Below are positions 14,274-18,237 of a stretch of 64,000 bases of DNA, piece after piece. This stretch comes from Rhodopseudomonas palustris (GTDB lineage Bacteria; Pseudomonadota; Alphaproteobacteria; Rhizobiales; Xanthobacteraceae). A model generated the notes under the pieces. It made no database searches, was not told where the DNA came from, and worked only from the letters and a program-made list of their open reading frames with translations. Each line of letters begins with the position of its first letter. Position 1 is the stretch's first letter. The stretch covers positions 248,001 through 312,000 of the forward strand of contig NZ_QYYD01000002.1 in NCBI RefSeq assembly GCF_003591005.1, read 5' to 3'. Made by a program: the position numbers and the translations under genes.

Positions 14274-14694
14274 TCAGATCCAAGGATCGACAACCGCGGC
14301 GCCGGCCCGCTTGAACTCGCTGGTGTCGCGCGTCACGACTGTCAGCCCATGATGCAGCGCGGTGGCGGCGATCAGCAGGTCCGGCTGCGAGAACGTGTGG
14401 CGCGCCTTGCGCCCCTGCGACGAGCAATCGCCACTTCAGCATCACGTCCTCTGACACCTCAAGCACCCGCTGATCGAACATTGGGCGCACGCGGTGGGTA
14501 AGCCAATCGTTCAAGTCAGCACGGCGGGACGCGTCCCCGACCTGCTCGATGCCGAAACGCAGCTCGGCTAGCGTGACGACGCTGACATAGAGCAAGTCGA
14601 GCGGCTGTGCCGAGACGAAGGCGACCACCTTGCGCTCCGGCTTCGGCCGGCGAAGCTCGGACAACACGTTGGTGTCAAGCAGCCACCCGGCCAC
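14274..14694 (-). pseudogene. vapC: PIN-domain (VapC-type) toxin, frameshifted
   Basis: From a GTG at 14694 the frame reads a PIN domain beginning WLLDTNVLSELRRPKPE, with acidic Asp and Glu positions, to about 14413 (MLKWRLLVA). The expected remainder (GRKARHTFSQPDLLIAATAL, then LTVVTRDTSEFKRAGAAVVD) lies in another frame and stops at 14274. The sequence GTCGCAGGGGCGC at the junction looks like GTCGCAGAGGGGCGC with two bases lost. The shift removes the C-terminal catalytic acidic residues, so the nuclease should be inactive. The GTG lies nine bases after the antitoxin stop, the usual arrangement. A sequencing error is the alternative explanation. Confidence 0.8.
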
Positions 14695-14703
14695 GACCCG
14701 CGG

Positions 14704-14994
14704 CTACAGATCGACGTCGCGAACCGGCATCCGCGCACGCTTCGGGGCCAGTTCAAGCTTGCGGTGCGGCGAAGCCTGCATCGCTTCGACCAGCGCCGCG
14801 CCGCTACGGCTGCCGCTCAGCCGGCGATAATGGTCCGCCGCGATGATCACGACCTCGTCGTGGCCATGCACCGTCACGATCTGCGGCCCCTCATCGCGCG
14901 CCGACCGAACCACCTCACTGAACCGCGCTTTGGCATCCTGGAGCTGCCAGCGGCCGGTTCGATCAGGAAACTGAGGTGGGGTCGATCTGGTCAT
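14704..14994 (-). CDS. Phd/YefM-family antitoxin
   Basis: This 96-residue antitoxin has the N-terminal DNA-binding fold typical of Phd/YefM proteins (WQLQDAKARFSEVVRSARDEGPQIVTVHGHDEVVIIAADHYRRL) and a C-terminal tail that would wrap the toxin. It is intact, although the toxin gene immediately downstream is frameshifted. It should bind its own promoter and repress the operon. The ATG at 14994 was chosen because the homology begins just after it; the longer upstream frame has no similarity I can recognise. Confidence 0.82.
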   Translation of the reverse strand: MTRSTPPQFPDRTGRWQLQDAKARFSEVVRSARDEGPQIVTVHGHDEVVIIAADHYRRLSGSRSGAALVEAMQASPHRKLELAPKRARMPVRDVDL

Positions 14995-15093
14995 GCTGAC
15001 CAGATTAGGCCGGCGCCGCCGTTTGGCAAGGGGAGGCCATCGCGTCGCCCGATCGCCAAGTGGGGAACGCGAGCATCCCCGAGCCGCAGCGCC

Positions 15094-15117
15094 CCCTCTG
15101 CCGCTTGCGGGAGAGGG
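15094..15117. repeat. CCCTCTGCCGC-type palindrome
   Basis: CCCTCTGCCGCTTGCGGGAGAGGG is an imperfect copy (one mismatch) of the palindrome at 15286-15309. It is followed by the same CTGGGGTGA tail. Confidence 0.75.
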
Positions 15118-15285
15118 CTGGGGTGACGGCGACGGGGGCAGTGAGTCTAACACGGAGCACATCGTTGGGCGGGTTAGCCGAAGGCGTAACCTGCCGATAC
15201 GCGCCGTCAATGAAGGCGGCGGATTACGCTGCGCTAATCTGTCCTACGAGCTAATCATCGCCCACGCCCCGCGCCGCAGCGCGCT

Positions 15286-15309
15286 CCCTCTCCCGCTTGC
15301 GGGAGAGGG
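15286..15309. repeat. CCCTCTCCCGC-type palindrome
   Basis: CCCTCTCCCGCTTGCGGGAGAGGG plus CTGGGGTGAGGGCGACG, the same element as at 14217. The surrounding 15000-15490 gap contains only repeats. Confidence 0.8.
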
Positions 15310-15390
15310 CTGGGGTGAGGGCGACGCGAGCAGTGAGGTTCGTTCGGACTAACTCATCAGCGGGTTAGCCGAATGCAGGCCGCGGAGATC

Positions 15391-15471
15391 GGCGGGTTAC
15401 GCCTTCGGCTAACCCGCCCTACGTGCTACATGCTTTAAGATTAGCGGCGGATTACGCTGTGCTAATCCGCC
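15391..15471. repeat. Two adjacent hairpins, GGCGGGTTA and GGCGGATTA types
   Basis: GGCGGGTTA ... TAACCCGCC (15391-15418) and GGCGGATTA ... TAATCCGCC (15447-15471) are inverted repeats. Related sequence (GGGCGGGTTAGCCGAAGGCG) occurs around 15168-15187 and GGCGGATTACGCTGCGCTAA near 15218-15237. They look like a third family of short mobile palindromes just before a foreign-looking gene. Confidence 0.75.
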
Positions 15472-15510
15472 CTCCGGGCCTGGGCAGCGATGGGTAAAAG
15501 AGGATTCTTC

Positions 15511-16260
15511 ATGTTAGTCGAACCGCAAGAGGGCCGCATTGCTGTCGCTTTAGAAGGGCAGGAATTTGATCTTGAAGATGCCTGCGATGCTTTTCCGTTG
15601 GGTGGGGGAGCAGTTCAAGTTTGTCGAATCGTCATCTCACCGAGCGAAAAGTATGTGTTGTTGTCCGAGGTGCTTAACGAGCTTAAGGACGAGTCTGAGT
15701 TAGCTCGAATGTCACAGCGGCTAATTGACCTCGTGAACGGCGTGCTCTTTATCGATAACCCGGTACGACAGCCAATACGGCACCAAGGCATACATCACCG
15801 CCAATCTGCGAACGGCAATTGGGGCGTTACGATCAACGTGCCTACGGCCTTCGCTCGTGGGAGAGCTGGAAAGATAAGCTTCGCGCAAAAGACCGCTCCC
15901 ACGGAGCAACAATCTCAAATTTGTCTAGCGCTCTCTGATGAAGTCGTCATGGAGGTGCTTACCTATTTACGCGACACGCCTGATTGGCTTGATCTCTATA
16001 AGGCCCACGAGACAATGCAGGCGGACTTATCAGTCCGCTTTGGCCCAGAAGGAAAGAAGATCGTCGGGTGGCCTTCAAAGAAGATCAAGATCTTTACCGA
16101 GGTCGCGAACGGTGCGCGCCATGGCGAGAAGAGCGAGAGAGTTCGAGAAAAGCGCCAGCGGAAGGGTGAGTCGGTTATGTCGCTGTCGGAGGCACGGCAG
16201 TTCGTCCGAGAGCTGTGCCAGCTTTGGCTTAAGAGCATCGGCGTCCAAAATGGCGGTTGA
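15511..16260 (+). CDS. Hypothetical protein, atypical base composition
   Basis: I do not recognise a named family for this 249-residue soluble protein. The C-terminal third, with DWLDLYKAHETM, then EVANGARHGE, and MSLSEARQFVRELCQLWL at the end, resembles the tail of HEPN-like hypothetical proteins found in rhizobial accessory DNA; this is a weak impression. Base composition is clearly poorer in G+C than the surroundings, codon use differs, and palindromes flank it, all suggesting horizontal acquisition. I chose ATG 15511 because AGAGGA lies six bases upstream. ATG 15490 (seven codons longer) is the alternative. The stop overlaps the -35 element of the structured-RNA promoter. Confidence 0.7.
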   Translation: MLVEPQEGRIAVALEGQEFDLEDACDAFPLGGGAVQVCRIVISPSEKYVLLSEVLNELKDESELARMSQRLIDLVNGVLFIDNPVRQPIRHQGIHHRQSANGNWGVTINVPTAFARGRAGKISFAQKTAPTEQQSQICLALSDEVVMEVLTYLRDTPDWLDLYKAHETMQADLSVRFGPEGKKIVGWPSKKIKIFTEVANGARHGEKSERVREKRQRKGESVMSLSEARQFVRELCQLWLKSIGVQNGG

Positions 16261-16286
16261 CATTCTGGTAGAATCTAGATTATATT
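16257..16286 (+). promoter_or_regulatory. Near-consensus sigma70 promoter
   Basis: TTGACA (16257-16262) and TATATT (16281-16286) are separated by 18 bases, a 6/6 and 5/6 match to the sigma70 consensus. Transcription would start near 16293, directly before the first hairpin of the structured element. Such a strong AT-rich promoter stands out in this GC-rich sequence. Confidence 0.6.
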
Positions 16287-16291
16287 CCTAA

Positions 16292-16700
16292 CCACTCCGC
16301 CCCATCGAGGGGCGCGTTGCCGGGACGCTGGTCGTCGCGGGGCGGGGTGTGGCGCCTGCGGGTGTGGGGTGGACGTCGCCCTGTACCTCCGGGAGGCTGA
16401 GGGTCGCCGTCCGCCGCTACTACGAGCGGCCGCCGCGACAGAGGCTGGACGGGTACGGTAGAGGCCGGGGAAAGCCCGCAAGCTCGCTGTGTCCCGGAAG
16501 CACGGTCCTTCAGCCAAAAGTCGCCACGGTGGAGCGTCGAAAGACGTTTCCGCGGCGCTCGCGCTTCGGCGATCCGAAGCCTGAGACCGCGGCACTACCA
16601 AAGGCGCGTCTTTCGGCGCTCCGCCTCCCTCGGCCCGATGGCCGACCGGAGGCCCCCTGAACCCACCACTCACGCAAGGCTTTTGCGGGCAACGCCGCCG
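16292..16700 (+). ncRNA. Candidate large structured RNA, class unknown
   Basis: Nested helices span the element. A hairpin CGCCCC-atcga-GGGGCG lies at 16298-16314. A long-range closing helix pairs GCGTTGCC (16314-16321) with GGCAACGC (16688-16695). CCGTCC (16407-16412) pairs with GGACGG (16447-16452) and encloses GCCGC/GCGGC. A 19-bp helix pairs 16528-16546 with 16607-16625 and encloses CCGCGG/CCGCGG and the hairpin GCTTCGG-cgat-CCGAAGC (16563-16580). The two non-Watson-Crick pairs of the 19-bp helix are U-G in the plus-strand RNA but would be A-C in the minus strand, which sets the orientation. I see neither the RNase P P4 signature nor a tmRNA T-loop. It may be an independent RNA or a long leader of the gene at 16742. 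Confidence 0.6.
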
Positions 16701-16741
16701 CACGCGCGCACGCCCGCTGGTATCAGCATCAGGAGGGAGCG

Positions 16742-17116
16742 ATGCGGATTGTACCCACCACAGCGGTCGATTGGGACCAGGCGCGGCTCACCGCGCTCGA
16801 TCTCCACGCCGAGGCGGAGCGGCTGGCGACGCGGGCCGAGATGGACAACATCGCGGCGCGTCGAACGCTGCAGCGCGCGATCGCTGATGTCGTGCAGGCG
16901 CACAAGCGCTGCCCGGTGAAGGAGTGTCGCCGCGCCCGCGCCTGTTGCACGCCGCAGATCTGCGCCGCGCAGCCGATGGAGCGGCCGACCGAGCGGCAGT
17001 GGCAGATCATCGACGCGCTCTACGCCGACATCCAGCGCCGCCGCCGCGACGCGGCGCTGGCGTTGTGCGGCGGTGGCGATCAGGCGGGACCGCGGGCGTC
17101 GGGGAAGGTGAGATGA
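16742..17116 (+). CDS. Small cysteine-containing hypothetical protein
   Basis: This 124-residue protein starts at ATG 16742 behind AGGAGGGAGCG, an excellent ribosome-binding site. It is helical and charged, with a cysteine cluster CPVKECRRARACCTPQIC (about residues 59-76) that could bind a metal, followed by a second helical region around RPTERQWQIIDALYADIQRRRRD. I do not recognise the family. It lies directly downstream of the structured RNA and may share its promoter. Confidence 0.65.
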   Translation: MRIVPTTAVDWDQARLTALDLHAEAERLATRAEMDNIAARRTLQRAIADVVQAHKRCPVKECRRARACCTPQICAAQPMERPTERQWQIIDALYADIQRRRRDAALALCGGGDQAGPRASGKVR

Positions 17117-17188
17117 GTGTGCGGAGGGCGCCGCAGGCGGCACGTGGCGATGCGCAAGCGTTGGCGCAGCGGCGTCGGGGTGCGCGGC

Positions 17189-17297
17189 GATGGGTTTCGC
17201 TGCGCTCAACCCATCCTACGAGCTGCGAACGAGGTGCGCCCCTGGTCTCCAGCGCGGCGCCTGCGCTCCCTCGCCCCGCTCTTGGCGGGGAGAGGGG
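17189..17297. repeat. Palindromic repeats downstream of the small gene
   Basis: GATGGGTT ... AACCCATC (17189-17215) is followed by a CCCTCGCCCCGC ... GCGGGGAGAGGG palindrome (17268-17297). Both are intergenic hairpin elements, and no gene is seen in 17117-17529. Confidence 0.7.
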
Positions 17298-17410
17298 TGG
17301 GGTGAGGGGCATGGCACGGCAATGGTCCGCGCCGCGGGCCGTCGGAGGAAACGATGTGGGAAGAGCTGTGCAGCCGGAGAGGCTGCCGATGGTGAGAGCC
17401 TGTGCCGGGC

Positions 17411-17464
17411 CCCTCACCCGGATTGCTGCGCAATCCGACCTCTCCCCGCTATGCGGGGGAGAGG
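17411..17464. repeat. Double hairpin element before trcR-like gene
   Basis: GGATTGC-TGC-GCAATCC is followed immediately by CCTCTCCCCGC ... GCGGGGGAGAGG. It sits past the 3' end of the minus-strand gene at 17530 and may work as its terminator or mRNA stabiliser. Confidence 0.7.
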
Positions 17465-17529
17465 TTAGGCTGCGGCTTGCCGCAATCGATCGTGTTGAGC
17501 TCCAGGCGCGGCGCGCCGGCCGGGCTTCC

Positions 17530-18237
17530 TCAGAGGCCGTCTTCGTCCTCGTCGTCGTGCTTCTTGCCGCCGATGGTCTTGAGCTTGGCGAACACGGCGT
17601 CGACGTTGAGGTCGTCTTCGCTCTTGCCCGACGACGGCTCGTACTCGTCCTTGCGGGTGGTCTCGGAGGCCGGCAGCAGCGTGGCGCCGCCGTATTGCTG
17701 GTCGGCGGGCTTCTCCTTGGCGGCGCGCTGCACCTCGAAGTCGAGGTCGAGCTGCGAGCACAGGCCGAGCGTCACCGGGTCCATCGGGGTCAGCGTCGCG
17801 GCGTTCCAGTGGGTGCGGTCGCGCACCGAGGCGATGGTGGTCTTGGTGGTGCCGACCAGGCGCATGATCTGCGCGTCCTTGAGTTCCGGATGGTTGCGCA
17901 CCAGCCACAGGATCGCGCTCGGGCGCTCGTGGCGGCGCGACACCGGGGTGTAGCGCGGGCCCTTCTTCTTGCTGGCCTGCGGCAGAACGACCTTGCTCTC
18001 GGCGAGCTTGAGGCGGTGCTCGGGGTCCTTCTCGCCCTTCTCGATCTCGTCGCGGGTCAATTGACCGGACGAAATCGGGTCCATGCCCTTGATGCCTTGG
18101 GCGCTATCGCCGTCGGCGATCGCCTGGATCTCGAGCGGGTGCATCTTGGTGAAGTCGGCGACCTGGTCGAACGACAACGCCGTGTTGTCGAGCAGCCAGA
18201 CGGCGGTGGCCTTCGGCATCAGCGGTGCGTTGCTCAT
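17530..18237 (-). CDS. trcR: DUF1013 protein, TrcR-type cell-cycle transcriptional regulator
   Basis: This 235-residue protein matches the alphaproteobacterial DUF1013 family, some members of which are named TrcR and act as transcription factors associated with cell-cycle control. The N-terminus (MPKATAVWLLDNTALSFDQVADFTKMHPLEIQAIADG) and the middle (PSAILWLVRNHPELKDAQIMRLVGTTKTTIASVRDRTHWN) each look like helix-turn-helix segments. The C-terminus is acidic and low in complexity (KKHDDEDEDGL). It is a single gene, divergent from ispH across a 270-base gap in which I see no other feature. The family assignment is confident; the symbol less so. Confidence 0.8.
   Translation of the reverse strand: MSNAPLMPKATAVWLLDNTALSFDQVADFTKMHPLEIQAIADGDSAQGIKGMDPISSGQLTRDEIEKGEKDPEHRLKLAESKVVLPQASKKKGPRYTPVSRRHERPSAILWLVRNHPELKDAQIMRLVGTTKTTIASVRDRTHWNAATLTPMDPVTLGLCSQLDLDFEVQRAAKEKPADQQYGGATLLPASETTRKDEYEPSSGKSEDDLNVDAVFAKLKTIGGKKHDDEDEDGL

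Follow-up and report, generated by a model that had tools for sequence, protein, structure and literature searches.

The window analysed herein is a stretch of 64,000 nucleotides from Rhodopseudomonas palustris (contig NZ_QYYD01000002.1, positions 248,001 to 312,000). A segment of some 400 nt lies between a 256-aa ORF and a 124-aa ORF of this window, and an earlier note, made from the sequence, had proposed that it is a structured element with a strong promoter. Three options were named for it: an independent RNA, a leader of the 124-residue gene, or part of a mobile element. The question is which of these applies. As described below, the segment is very probably the gene for a large folded RNA that is present in several copies per genome in a single group of soil and water bacteria, and its 5' edge is a boundary beyond which related strains differ in their genes, some of them for defence against viruses.

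Layout of the element

The features of the element and its neighbours are collected in Table 1. The proposed promoter could be read directly in the sequence, with TTGACA at 16257-16262, an 18-nt spacer and TATATT at 16281-16286, and the 19-bp helix now called P8 was present with exactly two U-G pairs. The 256-aa and the 124-aa ORFs on the two sides had no match in Pfam or PADLOC. The 256-aa ORF terminates within the -35 hexamer (stop codon overlap at 16257-16260), and the same overlap, with other ORFs, was seen in L018, L066, and L189.

Table 1 Features of the RNA element and its neighbours in the window.
Feature	Position	Strand	Basis or remark
Sigma-70-type promoter, TTGACA-18-TATATT	16257..16286	+	Sequence; predicted start near 16293
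Structured RNA core, about 340 nt	16293..16632	+	Profile matches and structure; ends inferred
P1, 5' strand; partner 16627-16632, closes the RNA	16306..16311	+	Covariation count
P1, 3' strand	16627..16632	+	Covariation count
P2, 5' strand (GYGGCG); partner 16522-16527	16349..16354	+	Covariation count
P2, 3' strand (CGCCRC)	16522..16527	+	Covariation count
P3, 5' strand; partner 16502-16515	16395..16410	+	14 pairs, 10 changed on both sides
P3, 3' strand	16502..16515	+	Covariation count
P4 hairpin, 16413-16418/16425-16430, loop about ACTAC	16413..16430	+	96.9% paired
P5 hairpin, 16432-16435/16442-16445	16432..16445	+	87.2% paired; 2 of 4 pairs changed on both sides
P6, 16453-16459/16487-16494; encloses a hairpin (GAAA-type loop)	16453..16494	+	Two counted helices; inner hairpin by eye
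P8, 5' strand of the 19-bp helix; partner 16607-16625	16528..16546	+	Sequence, covariation
P8, 3' strand	16607..16625	+	Sequence, covariation
3' extension to the start codon of the 124-aa ORF	16633..16741	+	Conserved in the window's clade
256-aa ORF, upstream slot	15490..16260	+	Replaced by unrelated DNA in sister strains
124-aa ORF of the window's clade	16742..17116	+	ORF list, clade comparison
TrcR family gene (PF06242, E 5.4e-66), conserved right-hand neighbour of the locus	17530..18237	-	

Covariation of the fold

The core was aligned from 59 of 68 copies, dereplicated at about 85% with the longest ones left out, and the core pairs were chosen on the same alignment, partly from RNAalifold and partly by eye. 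Within the five core helices (32 pairs), 87.1% of 1860 cells were paired, and 24 pairs, amounting to 297 cells, were changed on both sides and still paired. None of 500 shuffles, which do not remove shared ancestry, reached 297 (mean 105.1 doubly changed cells, sd 9.0), and slid controls, which keep shared ancestry, gave at most 98. The clearest helix is P4: pairs 2 and 3 each had both bases changed in 28 of 59 copies, and neither had a broken cell. Helix 5, in P6, had all 6 pairs changed on both sides, with 74.9% of its cells paired.

Three further helices, P1, P2, and P8, are supported. P1 was paired in 84.7% of 391 cells and had 42 doubly changed cells versus 16.7 in shuffles; its outermost pair was unpaired in 33 of 64 copies. 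P2 was paired in 99.0% of 401 cells, and a C-G pair was replaced by U-A in 15 of 68 copies. For P8, 16 pairs were counted in 68 copies; 97.4% of 1086 cells were paired, and 55 doubly changed cells were found, against a mean of 13.7 and a maximum of 25 across 300 shuffles; slid versions gave no more than 10. The 19-bp helix noticed in one copy is thus supported across the copies. The two further helices inside it were present in the predicted fold of the window's copy.

Two smaller helices of the earlier note fared less well. The start hairpin (16299-16303/16309-16313) is present, its middle three pairs in 27 of 27 copies, the outer in 21 and the inner in 23; its changes were one-sided only, so that the hairpin fits the data and is unproven. 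Some of its bases also belong to the closing helix P1. The 8-bp helix joining the two ends (16314-16321/16688-16695) is also present in the window. Overall, 152 of 216 cells were paired in the 27 copies, and the helix was intact in 10 of them, all from the window's locus; it therefore characterises this locus at best, not the family, and it would also cross the better supported P1.

The strand was then considered. The plus strand had a folding energy at z -2.88, with none of 100 shuffles as good, and the minus strand at z -2.80, with 1 of 100 as good. Energy alone cannot pick the strand, because the minus strand folds nearly as well. The wobble pairs can: G-U exceeded A-C by 68 to 9 in P8 plus P2, and by 150 to 59 in the core, which identifies the plus strand as the RNA. 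The argument that the earlier note drew from two U-G pairs therefore holds across the family.

GC-rich ORFs overlap the element on both strands, as would be the case for a protein-coding gene or pseudogene family. However, at most 37 of 159 copies leave any given frame open across the RNA, length differences in the core fall into all three phases, Pfam gave no match for the two longest of these ORFs, and the core covaries. The ORFs look like the shadows they had been taken for, and the coding explanation is scarcely credible.

Distribution of the RNA family

Homologues were searched at several levels. The DNA search matched 33 of 101 genomes, the window's own included, some of the matches being short; one match of 28 nt fell in another family of the order. 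In many loci the matches ended at 16272-16300 and at 16629-16631, and these recurrent ends suggest a discrete unit. A profile was built from 19 full-length copies, and in many of the retrieved loci it matched the unit over its whole length or nearly so. The scan of named genomes with a core pattern returned at least 117 stretches, and the 80 matches listed came from Rhodopseudomonas, Afipia, Tardiphaga, Bradyrhizobium sp. NFR13, and Rhodoplanes, and from records labelled Hyphomicrobiales or Xanthobacteraceae; a few had coarser or unexpected labels, for example Rhizobium sp. Q54 or Proteobacteria bacterium.

A covariance model of the core was then searched in 61 genomes with strict filters, which lose weak matches. 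It matched 24 genomes, all among the 37 of the window's family; the 24 genomes from other families of the order had none under these filters. In the genus Rhodopseudomonas, 14 of 16 genomes matched, with 6-20 copies each, and the window's own genome holds 11 copies. Under the same strict filters, a class-wide draw of 115 genomes gave one match, the window's own genome, and none in the 114 others. As far as searched, the RNA family is confined to one family of Hyphomicrobiales.

The comparison with Rfam 15 proposed earlier gave no match at gathering score in the whole window, and near the element below-threshold matches only, so no known class could be assigned. Among the divergent copies L028, L035, L036, and L002, the sole match above threshold was a TPP riboswitch outside the element, all others scoring far lower than their thresholds. 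This riboswitch lies at 2211-2323 of L036, about 400 nt downstream of the element copy. The RNA family is new to Rfam 15.

Two observations on the Afipia copies are added. In L103, L118, and L160, two copies face each other within about 5-7 kb, which may be chance given the copy density. Afipia contigs often end inside the element at similar model positions, as a near-identical repeat would cause, or a halt of assembly at strong hairpins.

Promoter and downstream genes

Promoter-like hexamers (at least 9 of 12 positions, spacer 16-19) were found in 66% of 182 distinct copies versus 2.4% of shuffles. TTGAC occurred near the start in 128 of 215 copies, a count that includes degenerate or missing starts. 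In the seven closest orthologues the spacer is free to change and the hexamers are mostly kept. The L013 orthologue has a changed -10 hexamer and an intact RNA, and is a possible silent copy.

The downstream side bears on the explanation that the RNA serves as the 5' leader of a downstream gene, the 124-aa gene or any other, in the manner of a riboswitch or by binding a protein. In the window's clade the conserved stretch runs through 16741 to the start codon of the 124-aa ORF, preceded by the Shine-Dalgarno-like AGGAGGGAG; L019 has a codirectional 127-aa ORF 46 nt downstream; and the nearest gene is codirectional at 54 of 187 loci. All three would suit a leader. The nearest called downstream gene was antisense at 106 of these loci, however, that is, at 106 of the 160 with a gene called, and none was called at 27, in a count where some of the 187 loci are the same place fetched twice and genes were called by a crude G+C rule. 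This prevalence of antisense neighbours argues against a leader role in general. The 117 downstream proteins are spread over many unrelated families (99 Pfam families, each matched by 2 of them at most), with no constant codirectional gene family of the kind expected for a cis-acting leader or riboswitch, and the 124-aa ORF evolves faster than the RNA. As a role of the family, the leader proposed for the 124-residue gene is therefore not supported, and the leader explanation as a whole is judged improbable; within the window's clade, the RNA may have an extra role at the 124-aa gene.

The option of an independent RNA, on the other hand, gained strong support from the covarying fold, the conserved promoter, the multi-copy family, and the lack of a constant downstream gene. 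A fold that covaries on one strand, behind a putative promoter recognised by its match to the consensus, has the properties of a stand-alone structured ncRNA.

Conservation at orthologous places

At the window's locus, six sister species had 96-100% identity over 16300-16549 and 88-90% over 16550-16599, while their upstream DNA was unrelated and the 124-aa ORF fell to 56% in places. Further downstream, L013-L018, the six closest orthologues, had 98-100% identity in 16650-16699 and 88-92% in 16700-16749. Values were weaker in L019-L021, distant copies located there or elsewhere, with identities of 56-92%. That 16300-16549 is kept while the flanks diverge is read as purifying selection on the RNA.

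Copies at the same place occur in three GTDB genera (14 genomes). Copies at orthologous places had a mean identity of 95.3% and a lowest of 69.3% (55 pairs in six hand-picked groups), whereas copies of the same genome had a mean of 68.5% and a highest of 99.1% (101 pairs in four genomes). This difference indicates that the places predate the divergence of these species, and that the copies are not homogenised as a rule.

The 5' edge as a breakpoint

The edges of the element were counted in 119 unique copies flanked on either side by 1.3 kb or more, out of 128 usable and 215 in total. The downstream flank was shared beyond 150 nt by 205 copy pairs, and 25 of these also had the upstream flank in common. 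Conversely, 32 pairs shared the upstream flank, and 25 of the 32 also shared the downstream flank. An earlier cut with other thresholds had given 171 pairs, 20 of them also upstream.

Loci were then defined by single linkage of downstream homology. The 15 loci comprised 68 copies, among which 56 upstream types were distinguished; 12 loci had two or more types and 3 had a single one. The window's locus alone had 14 copies from 14 genomes with 14 upstream types. For 153 of 176 pairs, the start of homology lay between -10 and +45 of the element (median +25). In control windows of 1 kb located 6-12 kb leftwards, the homologue was absent in 10 of 204. At three loci (B, D, and E), the left flank reappears at a distance of 0.9-4.6 kb upstream. 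At locus A, which is the window's locus, it resumes about 4-6 kb upstream in five sister strains, with mosaic pieces between; within the window's own 16 kb no resumption was found. The 5' edge of the element is a fixed boundary of exchange slots. The earlier remark that the element lies in an accessory patch thus turned out to describe a recurrent property of the RNA family.

Some places depart from this pattern. At the L009 place, the RNA is missing from five sister genomes in which the left flank is conserved as far as the -35 hexamer. Four of the five have TTGACA there, and G003 has a changed hexamer. RNA copies are thus also lost, and one of the five, G015, has a decayed place (L236, G015:C3) with TTGACA followed by a remnant of the 3' part of the RNA. 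At L005, a block of neighbouring DNA that precedes the RNA in the window's genome follows it in sister genomes. L007 and L211 have a common upstream side and different downstream sides. Rearrangement between copies was considered as the cause of the variable edge; it may apply to L007 and L211, and was rejected for loci A, B, D, and E, where the left flank resumes within a few kb.

The third option of the earlier note, a mobile element, can be weighed at this point, in the form of a MITE-like element or an attC-like folded site of single-strand recombination, whose fold would matter as DNA and not as RNA. The many copies per genome, their varying places and orientations, the breakpoint at the 5' edge beside strain-specific DNA, the Afipia contigs ending inside the element, and one pair within a genome at 99% identity would all suit such an element. 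The orthologous copies, however, remain in place at 95% mean identity and look vertically inherited, the breaks are one-sided, the promoter hexamers are kept while the spacer changes, and the large excess of G-U over A-C fits a plus-strand RNA. No match was found by blastn in plasmids and phages, nor in viral contigs with one exact core pattern, an insensitive pattern that finds 35 and misses 45 of 80 loci. We consider a mobile DNA element improbable.

Inverted repeats and partial copies were also looked for. No inverted repeat bounding the element was found among the 16 pairs listed for 14500-17600, with empty places viewed at one locus, and no partial copies of the element were found at a useful score inside the slots of 15 longer loci.

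Content of the slots

The nearest upstream proteins, 123 after dereplication, matched 152 PADLOC families, versus 3 for the 117 downstream proteins (E <=1e-4), where family numbers are not protein numbers. A one-by-one scan covered the first 30 of the 123, and 4 of these matched PADLOC, two weakly; the defence signal stems from a minority of slots. The numbers of Pfam families were 121 upstream and 99 downstream. The L016 slot, at the window's locus in a sister species, holds a PDC-S34 candidate, and by eye other slots hold toxin-antitoxin-like, GIY-YIG-like, and glutathione-transferase-like genes.

Repeats were also seen in slot DNA. A 36-nt inverted repeat of the GGGTTAGCCGAAGGCG type (15163-15198/15388-15423, 94% complementary) lies in the window, and a repeat of this type recurs in the slot of one sister strain. 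Repeats of about 80 bp in one slot (L222) were examined as attC-like cassette sites and judged by eye not to be attC; we take them to be a common rhizobial palindromic repeat.

A further explanation is that the element might be an ordinary structured sRNA gene, the upstream variability reflecting tolerance of insertions next to a strong promoter and having no relation to the RNA. It would be consistent with the slot DNA, where visual inspection of three slots (two at locus E, one at locus B) revealed no shared end motif, and with the absence of recombinases among the matches listed (25 of 121 upstream Pfam families). The L009 place, where the RNA is lost with the left side kept, points the same way, and tRNA and sRNA genes commonly edge islands. 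The one-sided bias with a sharp edge nevertheless recurs at 12 of the 15 loci, and variability is rare (10 of 204) in windows taken from these flanks at a distance of 6-12 kb. We regard this explanation as a realistic possibility, somewhat on the unlikely side.

Discussion

Taken together, we think it probable that 16257-16632 is a stand-alone RNA gene that acts in trans and also forms the fixed right edge of exchange slots. Transcription would proceed rightwards from the element's own promoter and yield a structured RNA of a predicted 340 nt or so, perhaps longer in the window's clade. The copies of this RNA stay at fixed places between species. The molecular role of the folded RNA is most likely one in trans, presumably with a protein or RNA partner. 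The gene, taken from its promoter rightwards, is the fixed right edge of a slot with about 1-6 kb of accessory DNA that differs between strains and includes some anti-phage genes. The conserved, multi-copy promoter-plus-RNA segment may serve as the anchor, either a homology arm or a preferred insertion point, for DNA joined upstream; this role is suggested because joins at the promoter leave the RNA intact and transcribed. A stronger version, in which the RNA or its transcribed gene actively organises the capture of small anti-phage or accessory cassettes at its promoter, appears unlikely. If true, it would amount to an integron-like system marked by RNA and dispersed across the chromosome, with the many copies of a clade-specific family as landing points.

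OLE, GOLLD, ROOL, and HEARO are large structured bacterial RNAs whose roles are unknown or were recently found. The present RNA resembles them in its length of several hundred nt, its complex covarying fold, a probable transcript of its own, and a limited host range. It differs from them in having no Rfam 15 match, in its 6-20 copies per genome in most of a genus, and in that no constant protein neighbour was seen among the matches listed. HEARO has an Rfam family model, and neither the window nor the divergent copies matched an RNA family model for HEARO or OMEGA RNA in Rfam. No IscB/TnpB-type nuclease was found among the matches listed (25 of 121 and 25 of 99 Pfam families).

As conserved RNA genes at the edge of variable DNA, the copies are also comparable to the tRNA and sRNA genes that commonly form the edges of genomic islands and defence hotspots. 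Here, however, the 5' (promoter) side is variable, the measured slots are small, at about 1-6 kb, and many slots in a genome are marked by a single RNA family.

Published repeats were compared as well. The GC-IGR survey (PMC11109978) describes a mobile or repeat candidate with a single long stem, some instances of which lie near a transposase gene. The present element resembles the survey's candidates in its many copies per genome and inconsistent orientation to neighbouring genes. It differs from that example in being a multi-helix RNA with a probable promoter, fixed orthologous places, and RNA-fitting wobble pairs. Br-REP1 and Br-REP2 of Bradyrhizobium are repeats of the same bacterial group, and are described in PMC5082802 as short palindromes in 3' untranslated regions, partly in transcripts. 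Identity with Br-REP1 or Br-REP2 was rejected, the element having a different sequence. No description of the RNA was found in the literature searched, which included passages of PMC5082802, PMC11109978, and PMC4842269.

An RNA with about 95% mean identity between close species, found at one and the same place in three GTDB genera and in 6-20 copies in most genomes of its genus, presumably does something valuable for its hosts. The genus is tractable, which makes the family readily accessible to RNA biochemistry. An RNA that marks the exact edges of slots would be a new handle on the gain and swap of defence genes, and the family could serve as a search key for undescribed defence systems.
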